A stretch of DNA of 64,000 bases, taken from the NCBI RefSeq assembly GCF_017875315.1, contig NZ_JAGGMM010000001.1, positions 744,001-808,000 of the forward strand. The letters are read 5' to 3'. Source of the DNA: Methanomicrobium sp. W14 (GTDB lineage Archaea > Halobacteriota > Methanomicrobia > Methanomicrobiales > Methanomicrobiaceae). Positions within the stretch are counted from its first letter, which is position 1, and each line of letters opens with the position of its first letter. A model generated the notes under the pieces. It did not search any database. It was given only the letters and a program-made list of their open reading frames with translations, and was not told the DNA's origin. This document shows, piece by piece, positions 15,425 to 19,736 of the stretch. Both the position numbers and the translations under genes were made by a program.

Positions 15425-15490
15425 CCGTGTATTATCTTTGTTTTCGTAGGGATATGATTGTTTTGAGAACAAATACGATCAATTTACCCG

Positions 15491-15511
15491 ATAAACCATA
15501 TGTTGCTAAAC
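15491..15511 (+). repeat. 21-bp repeat, copy A (two mismatches to copies B and C)
   Basis: Begins ATAAACCATATG and ends TTGCTAAAC. It matches copies B and C at 19 of 21 positions. It lies 67 bases upstream of the mutS ATG, inverted relative to copy B, so A and B could pair as a long hairpin with a 71-base loop. Confidence 0.7.
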
Positions 15512-15577
15512 AATTTTCTCAAAGGTGTAAAGTCCAACATCAATATCATTATATTTTTTGATTTCCCTAACACATAG

Positions 15578-15603
15578 GTAAAGTATAGCATCATATGGTT
15601 TAT
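15578..15603 (-). repeat. 26-bp repeat, copy B
   Basis: Read on the minus strand it starts ATAAACCATATG, continues ATGCTATAC and ends TTTAC. It is identical to copy C (18102-18127) at 25 of 26 positions and is inverted relative to it. The B-C pair brackets the xerA island. Confidence 0.85.
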
Positions 15604-15816
15604 TGAATATATGTTTCAAGTATCAAGAAAACGAAAAAGGTGAAATTCAGTGAATAAATTAATAAAACCAGAATATATAACAGATTCAAAAGGAATTTCT
15701 TAAAAAACTACCAGGCAGGACAACATTAGTTAATCTAAAAGAAACAAAAGCCTCAGTTCATAAAGCAGTAACCAACATATTAATCTGATTTAACGGATGC
15801 TCCCGCGTAGGAAAAC

Positions 15817-15884
15817 CATCCCCACGATGTAACACCTATTGAAACCAACTGTTTAATCCGGTAAAGCAGGCACCTCCTGCCTGA
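15817..15884 (+). pseudogene. Probable remnant of a TnpB (IS200/IS605-type) 3' end with terminal hairpin
   Basis: One frame reads HPHDVTPIETNCL (15817-15855); a second, shifted frame reads VKQAPPA then stop (15861-15884). DVTPxET and KQEAPPx are typical of the last residues of archaeal TnpB proteins, so a frameshift and loss of one codon would explain what is seen. A hairpin CAGGC/GCCTG (15867-15871, 15879-15883) sits where IS605-type elements carry their right-end structure. No upstream RuvC or zinc-finger part is left. Judged by eye, not by alignment. Confidence 0.35.
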
Positions 15885-16388
15885 GCTCTGAATAATCATA
15901 AATAATCTTAGATATACTTTGAATAAACAGTTTTTTTGGTATTTCTTACGAAATCTCCACGTACCACGGATTACAATTCCAAAAAAAGTATGAGAGGGTC
16001 ACTAAAACTAAAACAAAAATAGATTGGCCTTAAAAAGTTGCAACTTGAATTGGTGCAGGTCTGGTTTTTGCCAAAATCAGTTATACGAAATTTTAGTGCA
16101 GACCAAAATAACGTTTAAACCTTATTTATCAGGACTAATATCCTTTCCAAAACCTTCCAATTTCCTAAACATGGTTTTTAAGACACTCTTGATGAGTCAT
16201 TATTCAATTCGCTATTTCTGAGCGATTAGCATAGAATAATCATCCTCTTAAGACCCATAGAAAACAACTTACAACAAGGGGTTACTATGAATCCAGGAAT
16301 TTTTTTTGACCAGCCGCCAGACTGCAGGGACACTATAACTTGAACACATTATTATTGTGTAATGAAGAAAACCTGTGTGACATATATT

Positions 16389-16416
16389 TTTGCGCAGAAT
16401 GTATATTCTACGCAAA
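16389..16416 (+). other. dif: dif-like Xer recombination site
   Basis: A 28-bp site with the 11-6-11 layout of Xer sites. Left arm TTTGCGCAGAA (16389-16399), spacer TGTATA (16400-16405), right arm TTCTACGCAAA (16406-16416). The arms are inverted copies with one mismatch, and symmetry extends one base further on each side. The spacer is the same as in the E. coli dif site, and the stretch GCGCA-x-AATGTATATT also matches it. It lies 33 bases before the ATG of the only tyrosine recombinase in the window. It could instead be an autoregulatory operator of xerA. Confidence 0.6.
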
Positions 16417-16449
16417 ACTTATTTACATAGAGTTATCAATAAAATAGCA

Positions 16450-17364
16450 ATGAAAAAGGATTCTTTTTCTGAATGGATAAAACGCTTCAGTTATCACCTG
16501 AAAATGAGGAATTATTCGCCCCGGACAATCAAAAGTTATGAAGACGGCATAAAGAGATTCGGGCATTATATGTGGATAAGACGAAACAAAGGCGAGGACG
16601 ACATTGAAGCATACTGGACTGACCGGAAAAATGCAGAAAATGACACAAAAATAGAGGTATCTCCTGTATTTGTAAATGATTTCCTGCTTTTTATTTCGCT
16701 ACAGAACAATTACAAACCGGCAACGCTGCAGAGAATAATATCCTCATTAAGTTCATTCTACAGGTTCTGCTATGCACAGGGTGCAGTTGAGGCAAACCCC
16801 ATGATCGGAATAGACAGGCCGAAAATCAAGGAAAAGGAGATTAGGTACCTCAAACATAACCAAGTCTTAAAGCTCCTGGAATCTATTCAGGATGAAAGAG
16901 ACCGCCTTATAATCAGGACGATATACGCAACAGGAGTACGTGTGTCCGAACTCTGCGGAATTGATATTGAAAATATAGATTTTGAAGACCATACAATCAG
17001 AGTTAAGGGAAAAGGAGGAAAAATAAGAACTGTTTTTATCGACGATGAAACACTTGATGAAATAGAAAAATACTCCGGCGGAAAGATTGAGGGGCCATTG
17101 TTTACAGGTCAGCTCGGAAAGAACATCTCTCCAAGAACGGTTCAGTACATATTTAATAAATACGCTCCGAAAGGGATTACACCGCATAAAATAAGACACA
17201 GCTACGCCAGTGAACTGTACAAAAGGTCCAAAAACCTTAGGGTTGTACAGGAAAATCTGGGCCACAGTTCAATTCAGACAACTGAAATCTACCTGCATAC
17301 TGATGTCGACGAAAGAAAAGAAGTCTACAATAGATTTTTCCCGCTCTCAGAATCAGGGAAATAA
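16450..17364 (+). CDS. xerA: XerA-type tyrosine recombinase
   Basis: 304 residues from ATG 16450. N-terminal SAM-like core-binding domain (MRNYSPRTIKSYEDGIKRFG; LQRIISSLSSFYRF) and C-terminal catalytic domain with all expected residues: Arg164 in ATGVRVSELCG, the Lys hairpin KGKGGKIRTVFI, His246 and Arg249 in HKIRH, His272 in LGHSS, and nucleophile Tyr281 in TTEIYLH. The frame is open 20 codons further up, but that part covers a dif-like palindrome and TATA-like CTTATTTACA, so ATG 16450 is the likelier start. Probable role: chromosome dimer resolution, or integration/excision. It stands alone in an AT-rich island. Confidence 0.9.
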   Translation: MKKDSFSEWIKRFSYHLKMRNYSPRTIKSYEDGIKRFGHYMWIRRNKGEDDIEAYWTDRKNAENDTKIEVSPVFVNDFLLFISLQNNYKPATLQRIISSLSSFYRFCYAQGAVEANPMIGIDRPKIKEKEIRYLKHNQVLKLLESIQDERDRLIIRTIYATGVRVSELCGIDIENIDFEDHTIRVKGKGGKIRTVFIDDETLDEIEKYSGGKIEGPLFTGQLGKNISPRTVQYIFNKYAPKGITPHKIRHSYASELYKRSKNLRVVQENLGHSSIQTTEIYLHTDVDERKEVYNRFFPLSESGK

Positions 17365-18215: not shown

Positions 18216-18959
18216 ATGACTGAACAGGAAATTGACGAAAGTTTTACGGATGAAAATAAATTATCAGAGGTAATTTCCAAATCCGGTGATAATTACAGTG
18301 ACACAGAACCCGGACCTGATGACGCAGACACAACAACGACTGATAATGAAATTAATAACGAAAATAATAGCCAGATAAACACTTCCGGACCTAAGGAGCA
18401 TAAACTGACAACCGAAGACAAGGAAAGAATAAACAAATACAAAAAGTTCAAAAAAGTTGACGGGTCAGCATACAGGCGTGTAAATACATTCCTGAGAAAA
18501 CACACATATATTACTGCAAGAGAATGGGCCATCGCAAGACTCTGCGCTGATTTCACAACAAGAGGGGGAGCAGAAATGACATTTATAGGAGAAAATCTTC
18601 CCGAACTTGTGCCCTTCATGACAGACACATATACTCCACAGGCAGTAAACCAGGCAAGAAGCTCATTCAAGAAAAAAGTCAAAAAATCCGGTGCAACTTT
18701 TTTTTACGGAGCACTATGCGGTTTTTTTACAGCAGATGAACTTGACGACATACTCTTTGAATCCAGTGAAGTTGCAAGGTTTTTGCTTGAAATCGAAGGC
18801 ACCTCTGTTGACATCGACGACGAAATTGAGACTGAAGACCAGATATCAGACGTTATGAGAAGCGTAGCCGAAGCAGCGTCAATGATCAGAAAACCGAAGA
18901 ATGACAAAGAACAGGATACCGGCAACAAGGAAAATGAAACTTTCAATGAAGGAGATTAA
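18216..18959 (+). CDS. DUF5806 family protein
   Basis: 247 residues. An acidic, low-complexity N-terminus (about 1-70) leads into a well conserved core: YRRVNTFLRKHTYITAREWA, ARLCADF, MTFIGENLPELVPFM, YTPQAVNQARSSFKKKV, GATFFYGALCGFFTADELDD. I recognise this core from haloarchaeal DUF5806 proteins; the function is unknown. It has its own promoter with a GAGGAGG ribosome site. mobB starts six bases after its stop, so the two are probably co-transcribed. The conserved core looks like a compact helical regulator or RNA/DNA-binding protein, but that is a guess. Confidence 0.75.
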   Translation: MTEQEIDESFTDENKLSEVISKSGDNYSDTEPGPDDADTTTTDNEINNENNSQINTSGPKEHKLTTEDKERINKYKKFKKVDGSAYRRVNTFLRKHTYITAREWAIARLCADFTTRGGAEMTFIGENLPELVPFMTDTYTPQAVNQARSSFKKKVKKSGATFFYGALCGFFTADELDDILFESSEVARFLLEIEGTSVDIDDEIETEDQISDVMRSVAEAASMIRKPKNDKEQDTGNKENETFNEGD

Positions 18960-18965
18960 TTAAAA

Positions 18966-19736
18966 ATGAAAATCATTCACATTGTCGGACACTCAAATTC
19001 CGGCAAGACGACATTTATTCATAAGCTCCTTGACACCATGGTTCCAATGTTTCCCCAAAGAGTGGGAGTCATCAAACACATGGGCCACCACAATTTCATG
19101 ATGGAAGAAGGAAAAGATACAACGACACATTTTGAGCATGGTGCCTATTATGTCGCAGGTCTGGACTGCAATAAAGCAATGGTTGCTATACATAGCAACG
19201 AACTGTTCGAAGTCCTCGACCTCCTTTCAGATGCAGGAATCGGTTATGCAATTATTGAAGGATTCAAAGACGAAGGCTTCAAAAAAATTGTAAAAGGGGA
19301 CCTTGAGATTGAAAATGCTCTAATGCATGACCCGTCGGTAGACGATGTAATAAACTCCCTTGACCTTTTTGACGACTACTACACCCTTCAGGGTATAATC
19401 AAAGGACTGGACAAAAATAAAAATTCAGACAGTACACAAAAAATTCTCTCATTCAAAGGATCCGTAAAAGATACCGGCGAAAAAAATAAAGAGAACAGGC
19501 ATAACAACAGGTGCCTGGAAATAAAAGAACTCTTAAACAAGACTGAAGAAAAAGCAAAGGGTTCACCTGGAATTGTTAATGCCAAATTCTTTTACAACCC
19601 CAGATACAATGAAAAAAACGGGACAGTATTTCTTGTTATTGCATATGAAAATCATGAAAATGCTTTTACTATGATGTCGGAATCAATAAAAAACTTCAAA
19701 GAAGAACTCACAGGTCTGGATAATACGCTGCAATAA
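18966..19736 (+). CDS. mobB: MobB-like molybdopterin-guanine dinucleotide protein with MoaE-like tail
   Basis: 256 residues. Residues 1-145 are a MobB-type P-loop GTPase: Walker A GHSNSGKTT (7-15), GVIKHMGHHNF, then YAIIEGFKDEGFKK. MobB helps attach GMP to molybdopterin for Mo/W enzymes such as formylmethanofuran dehydrogenase. The C-terminal segment (about 190-250; GTVFLVIAYENHENAF) resembles the end of MoaE, the large molybdopterin synthase subunit. MobB-MoaE fusions are known in archaea. Here the first part of MoaE seems to be missing, so the tail may be a degenerate domain. Co-transcribed with DUF5806. Confidence 0.8.
   Translation: MKIIHIVGHSNSGKTTFIHKLLDTMVPMFPQRVGVIKHMGHHNFMMEEGKDTTTHFEHGAYYVAGLDCNKAMVAIHSNELFEVLDLLSDAGIGYAIIEGFKDEGFKKIVKGDLEIENALMHDPSVDDVINSLDLFDDYYTLQGIIKGLDKNKNSDSTQKILSFKGSVKDTGEKNKENRHNNRCLEIKELLNKTEEKAKGSPGIVNAKFFYNPRYNEKNGTVFLVIAYENHENAFTMMSESIKNFKEELTGLDNTLQ

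Follow-up and report, generated by a model that had tools for sequence, protein, structure and literature searches.

The 28-base inverted site that stands immediately before xerA in Methanomicrobium sp. W14 is quite probably the dif site of XerA, that is, a predicted recombination site embedded in the promoter of the gene that codes for its own recombinase. The site occupies the same position before xerA across nearly the whole order Methanomicrobiales, and an additional autoregulation of xerA through its right arm is probable. The features involved are given below, with positions counted from the first base of the window (the whole 64-kb stretch of DNA that was analysed).

16389..16416, strand (.): dif-like XerA site, 28 bp, 11-6-11, recognized by its sequence, its uniqueness and its conservation at -61
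16389..16399, strand (.): left arm TTTGCGCAGAA, on the side away from the promoter; it varies more than the right arm and changes in concert with it
16400..16405, strand (.): spacer TGTATA, 6 bp, presumed strand-exchange region, the same as the spacer of E. coli dif
16406..16416, strand (.): right arm TTCTACGCAAA, promoter-proximal, the more conserved arm; its outer CGCAAA may also serve as BRE
16417..16428, + strand: A/T-rich element adjoining the site, ACTTATTTACAT, probable TATA box of xerA (presumed promoter role)
16450..17364, + strand: xerA, tyrosine recombinase of 304 aa (NF040815, alignment with 4a8e, catalytic residues)
18216..19736, + strand: downstream neighbours, a 247-aa gene followed by a MobB-like 256-aa gene, which mark the ancestral place of xerA

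The site and the recombinase gene

The 28-mer reads TTTGCGCAGAA-TGTATA-TTCTACGCAAA, with arms complementary at 10/11 positions, and is separated by 33 nt (16417-16449) from the ATG of xerA at 16450. Two inverted 11-bp arms around a 6-bp spacer, as in a dif site, are found here and also in the orthologous loci. The original prediction had described a near-symmetric 11-6-11 site 33 bases before a complete xerA, and this was exact (16389-16416, 10/11 arms). The similarity to E. coli dif that it gave (19/28 identical bases and identical spacers) is also correct when the sequence tabulated in PMC2731167 is taken as the reference. Only two 11-6-11 dyads with at least 10/11 paired positions exist in the 64-kb window, the other one being an A/T-rich sequence, so that the dyad by itself is not extraordinary. 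It is the placement and the conservation that are.

The product of xerA belongs to the NCBIfam family NF040815 (recomb_XerA_Arch, E 1.2e-83, score 280.7 bits, cut-off 220) and aligns with the XerA of Pyrococcus abyssi (4a8e, E 1.2e-31). The catalytic set R-K-H-R-[H/W]-Y is complete (R164, K191, H246, R249, H272, Y281). A XerA match was found in all of the good genomes of the order (46/46), and a close relative of the same genus is available as a Methanomicrobiaceae metagenome assembly (locus L053, contig G003:C47). The window also carries bacterial-type mutS and mutL, and there is a stretch of ~0.9 kb without a convincing gene (15473-16388) between mutS, which is on the minus strand, and the site.

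Number of sites per genome

The assembly of W14 (2.54 Mb, 6 contigs, 99% complete) contains the 28-mer only once when up to 3 mismatches are allowed in a pattern search. A degenerate pattern of the arms agrees with this, matching with one mismatch or less only at the xerA copy, and the uniqueness that the original prediction had proposed as a check is therefore borne out. The weaker matches to this pattern were considered as a possible second dif and rejected, their number being that of the reversed-pattern control (10 vs 8). Among 60 relatives, the consensus-arm pattern matched in 36 genomes with exactly one site in each, and the reversed control in none. In many of the genomes without a match the arms have diverged beyond the consensus pattern, yet the site is visible when the xerA loci are read, and no second site stood out among the matches listed for the relatives. 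The exceptions to the single copy are second copies in genomes of genus g20 and sites in two proviruses. An apparent second copy in genome G200 (contig C77) was discarded as an assembly fork, positions 1-810 of C77 being the reverse complement of positions 1-810 of C32 (96%).

Conservation upstream of xerA in Methanomicrobiales

Every readable xerA locus of families f1-f5 has the site (72/72). It starts 61 bases upstream of the ATG, except in two g20 genomes, where the distance is 60. Such conservation in related xerA loci excludes chance. In family f6, genus g21 has the site at about -68, with arms that pair perfectly or almost perfectly (10-11 of 11). Related 10/11 dyads were also seen ~110-170 bases upstream of xerA in 2/4 genomes of the sister family f14, whose XerA is about 40% identical. 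Alignment of the orthologous upstream regions had been suggested as a way to discriminate this site from a short operator, and what is kept in all the examined families of the order is the full 28 bp.

The distribution of the information along these 72 loci is very uneven. The 50 columns to the left of the site carry 0.2 bit or less each and the arm columns mostly 0.8-2 bits, so the conserved upstream block starts at the left arm. When the column values are summed, the right arm amounts to 16.6 bits vs 13.4 bits for the left arm. Between families the two arms drift jointly, as can be seen in f3 (CTGTCGCAGAAT....ATTCTGCGACAA) and g21 (ATTGCGCATAAT....ATTATGCGCAAT), and mutual information is highest between mirrored arm positions at 3 and 6-9. 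In a shuffle test the observed pairing and pair types were reached by 8 and 5 of 1000 shuffles, respectively, although shared ancestry inflates these figures. The spacer behaves differently, with 28 different sequences in 59 distinct sites and not a single palindromic one (0/59). Spacers that are free and never palindromic are what would be expected of a strand-exchange region that requires direction.

Additional XerA-type sites in proviruses and in genus g20

The proviruses that carry XerA-type sites belong to two genera (L106:11158-11185 in G169 and L105:782-809 in G139). In both of them the site has the large terminase gene on one side and a putative small terminase gene on the other. The arms are nearly the same as those of the host, and arms and flanks (AGTATAA-AAGGGGTCAGATTGCGCAGAACANANATTCTGCGCAAAGTTGTGTAA) agree between the two proviruses. 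The spacers do not: those of the viruses (CAGAAA/CATATA) differ from those of the hosts (GAGTGA/TAGGTG) and also from each other. Since the viral spacers are unlike the host dif, these sites would more likely serve the resolution of virus multimers by the XerA of the host than an integration at dif. Scans of viral contigs with the arms gave no match, and two terminase queries retrieved no virus with the site, the best site-like match being 15/24 (L233).

Some genomes of genus g20 have a second XerA-type site (TTTGCGCAgAATAATAATTCTGCGATAg; L107:3876-4000, L104, L108, L109, L110), located near tRNA-Leu and trkH. It stands directly before a TATA-like box, which is followed by a ~100-nt stretch conserved at 92-98%. 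A long hairpin can form in this stretch (ATGCCATA...TATGGCAT, z -1.78; no supporting covariation), which had no match in Rfam. It is possibly a small RNA gene.

Recombination site or operator

An aspect that the original prediction had missed is that the site adjoins the core promoter of xerA at a constant distance. It is found at -60/-61 to the ATG and right after it comes an A/T-rich box, seen at the equivalent place in nearly all the orthologous loci, where the TATA element is expected. This constant distance points to a second, regulatory role. One could go further and propose that XerA binds the palindrome just to repress its own gene, and that the true dif is elsewhere and has diverged arms. 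The invariable spacing of the 72 loci would fit such a pure operator, and so would the better conservation of the arm that adjoins the TATA region; both exceed the needs of recombination and count against a dif. The second copy of g20, likewise placed before a TATA-like box, goes in the same direction.

A way to separate the two roles is provided by the lineages in which site and gene have parted. Recombinase gene and site are adjacent across the lineage with the exceptions of genus g14 (0.5-1.3 kb apart) and genome G018 (separated). In g14 the full site is found upstream of xerA at the distance mentioned, and in the loci compared it forms a conserved island of 26-35 bases within DNA that otherwise aligns poorly between most species. 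At the gene the right-arm TTCTGCGCAA alone remains, ~33 bases before the ATG, in 7/7 genomes. The case of G018 depends on an assembly from a metagenome (89% complete, with 2% contamination). Its ancestral place (L052:2947-3730) preserves an intact 10/11 site and, at exactly 61 bases, a relic of xerA interrupted by many stops. The functional xerA is found on a different contig (L112:2105-3077), behind a copy of the site with a left arm short of 2 bases. The 247-aa and MobB-like genes that follow xerA in W14 also follow the site and the relic in G018 (L052), and xerA in G023 (L021), with 78.7% DNA identity over about 1.08 kb.

The lone right half-site that g14, and also G018, keep at the promoter of xerA would fit a pure operator. 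The full site, however, has survived in g14 at a distance from this promoter and in G018 in front of a dead xerA, and the proviruses have the arms without any xerA. These three cases are hard to reconcile with a site that serves the xerA promoter alone. Furthermore, no second site rises above the reversed-pattern background in the genome of W14, nor does one stand out among the listed matches of the relatives, and this counts against the operator because a protein that binds these arms should have a similar dif. Altogether we consider a pure operator unlikely. The half-site of g14 and the fixed -61 spacing rather suggest that the right arm serves the promoter in addition.

The site could also be a recombination site with a use other than dimer resolution, for instance as the att of an integrated element, or for resolution in a mobile element whose integrase became xerA. 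The same arms are present in two proviruses, site and recombinase travel jointly like an att-int module, and the location is off the skew maximum in the two genomes sampled. Nevertheless, XerA is a chromosomal gene throughout the order with conserved neighbours, the genome of W14 has no element bordered by repeats of the site, and the dissimilar spacers of viruses and hosts disfavour integration at the host site. We regard this reading as very improbable. The action of an unrelated transcription factor on xerA would explain a palindrome at a fixed distance beside the promoter, but we give it hardly any credit given the single site per genome (with no regulon), the Xer geometry and the similarity to dif, and the joint change of the two arms between families.

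Position on the chromosome

The dif site of XerA, our preferred reading, had originally been expected near the terminus of replication as defined by GC skew. We have calculated the skew by sampling in two genomes (G004 and G041) and in neither of them is the site at the maximum, so that a place strictly at the terminus was discarded for both; the off-maximum position counts against a dif. The skew of G004 is lowest near 2.2 Mb, where the orc genes lie, and highest near 1.17 Mb; the site (0.805 Mb) is about 150 degrees from the minimum and about 54 from the maximum. The skew of G041 is weak, with a broad peak at 1.1-1.8 Mb, and the site (0.69 Mb) is 98 degrees from orc1. The distance between the site and the main orc1 ranged from 43 (G016) to 173 degrees in 18 genomes, which are not independent, with a median of 111. 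If the main orc1 marks the origin, the site falls in the origin-distal half in 16/18 (beyond 90 degrees), and origin-distal is a fair description of its location, while terminus is not. Many genomes (G008, G010, G021, G036, G039, G041, G044, G054, G055 and others) have a second orc1/cdc6 at a distance of about 40-110 kb from xerA. It looks like old synteny, since the skew of G041 has no origin there.

Proposed function

We propose that XerA produced from the adjacent gene would bind the arms of the site, with two monomers on each site and a total of four in the synapse. Upon formation of a chromosome dimer two sites would synapse, the strands would be cleaved at the edges of the spacer, and their exchange across its 6 bp would restore the monomers. 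This mechanism follows what has been established for XerA and for other members of the tyrosine recombinases (PMC2958812, PMC5357621). The site would at the same time delimit the xerA core promoter on its upstream side, with the right arm adjoining the BRE/TATA region, and bound XerA may be expected to lower its own transcription because this arm borders the core promoter.

A more specific possibility, which we put forward tentatively, is that there are two separable jobs, the full dyad acting as dif and the right half as an operator through which XerA limits its own synthesis. The two jobs would part in evolution, as illustrated by g14, with a half-site at the gene and the dif ~1 kb off, and by G018, where the dif stays and the gene moves. 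Were this dual role true, XerA would be a recombinase and a transcription regulator, perhaps also of the putative small RNA gene of g20, and the cases with full and half sites represent a natural experiment that parts recombination from regulation.

Comparison with known Xer systems

The closest parallels are other archaeal XerA/dif pairs and the linked modules of bacteria. Like W14, Thermococcales (Pyrococcus abyssi; PMC2958812; 4a8e) have a single XerA and one 28-bp 11-6-11 site per chromosome. Their dif matches the bacterial consensus at 14-18 of 28 positions (PMC2958812); the 19/28 of W14 refers to E. coli dif. In Thermococcales the dif is away from xerA, at 122-142 degrees from oriC and at the skew optimum (PMC2958812, Cortez et al. 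2010), whereas the site of Methanomicrobiales is within the xerA promoter and away from that optimum in the two genomes for which the skew was sampled. More similar in this respect are the Sulfolobales. According to the cited text, their predicted dif is near xerA and far from the termination zones (PMC2958812; PMC7776575, citing Duggin et al. 2011). The Sulfolobales differ in being crenarchaeal, and the same text describes a short conserved flank on one side of dif; we found in it no fixed promoter-embedded position.

Among bacteria, the XerS/difSL of streptococci and lactococci and the XerH/difH of epsilon-proteobacteria also have a single recombinase linked to its site (PMC2731167, PMC5357621). 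XerS is reported to be under KOPS-oriented FtsK control (PMC2958812), and difSL is an atypical site of 31 bp, unlike the canonical 28-bp dif of W14. The site of E. coli XerCD shares with that of W14 the 28 bp, the 11-6-11 geometry, the spacer TGTATA and the GCGCA-AAT core. It has, however, dissimilar arms for two recombinases and is distant from both xerC and xerD, in contrast to the nearly symmetric arms and the one recombinase of W14.

Linked xerA/dif pairs had already been described in archaea (Sulfolobales; PMC2958812, PMC5357621), a precedent absent from the original prediction, and a 2017 review already mentions that some archaea have an individual xerA/dif module. The arrangement is akin to known XerA/dif pairs and linked modules, as far as can be judged from sequence, and its unusual part is the embedding in the promoter. 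The site provides a predicted dif for an entire order of methanogens, for which the literature searched contained no paper naming both Methanomicrobiales and XerA, and with it the linked arrangement known from Sulfolobales would also exist in an order of euryarchaea. That the site seems to lie away from the terminus, as the dif of Sulfolobales is reported to do, has a bearing on the timing of dimer resolution in archaea, which are not known to have FtsK.

Other dif-like elements

A 29-bp dif-like element is shared by genomes G006 (L156:2054-2078) and G003 (L157:1972-2000). We considered that it could be a mobile module and dropped the idea, as the element was found nowhere else among 231 genomes. 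The two copies are 90% identical and their contexts are unrelated, both beside restriction-type genes, at an hsdM-like end and after an mcrC-like gene.
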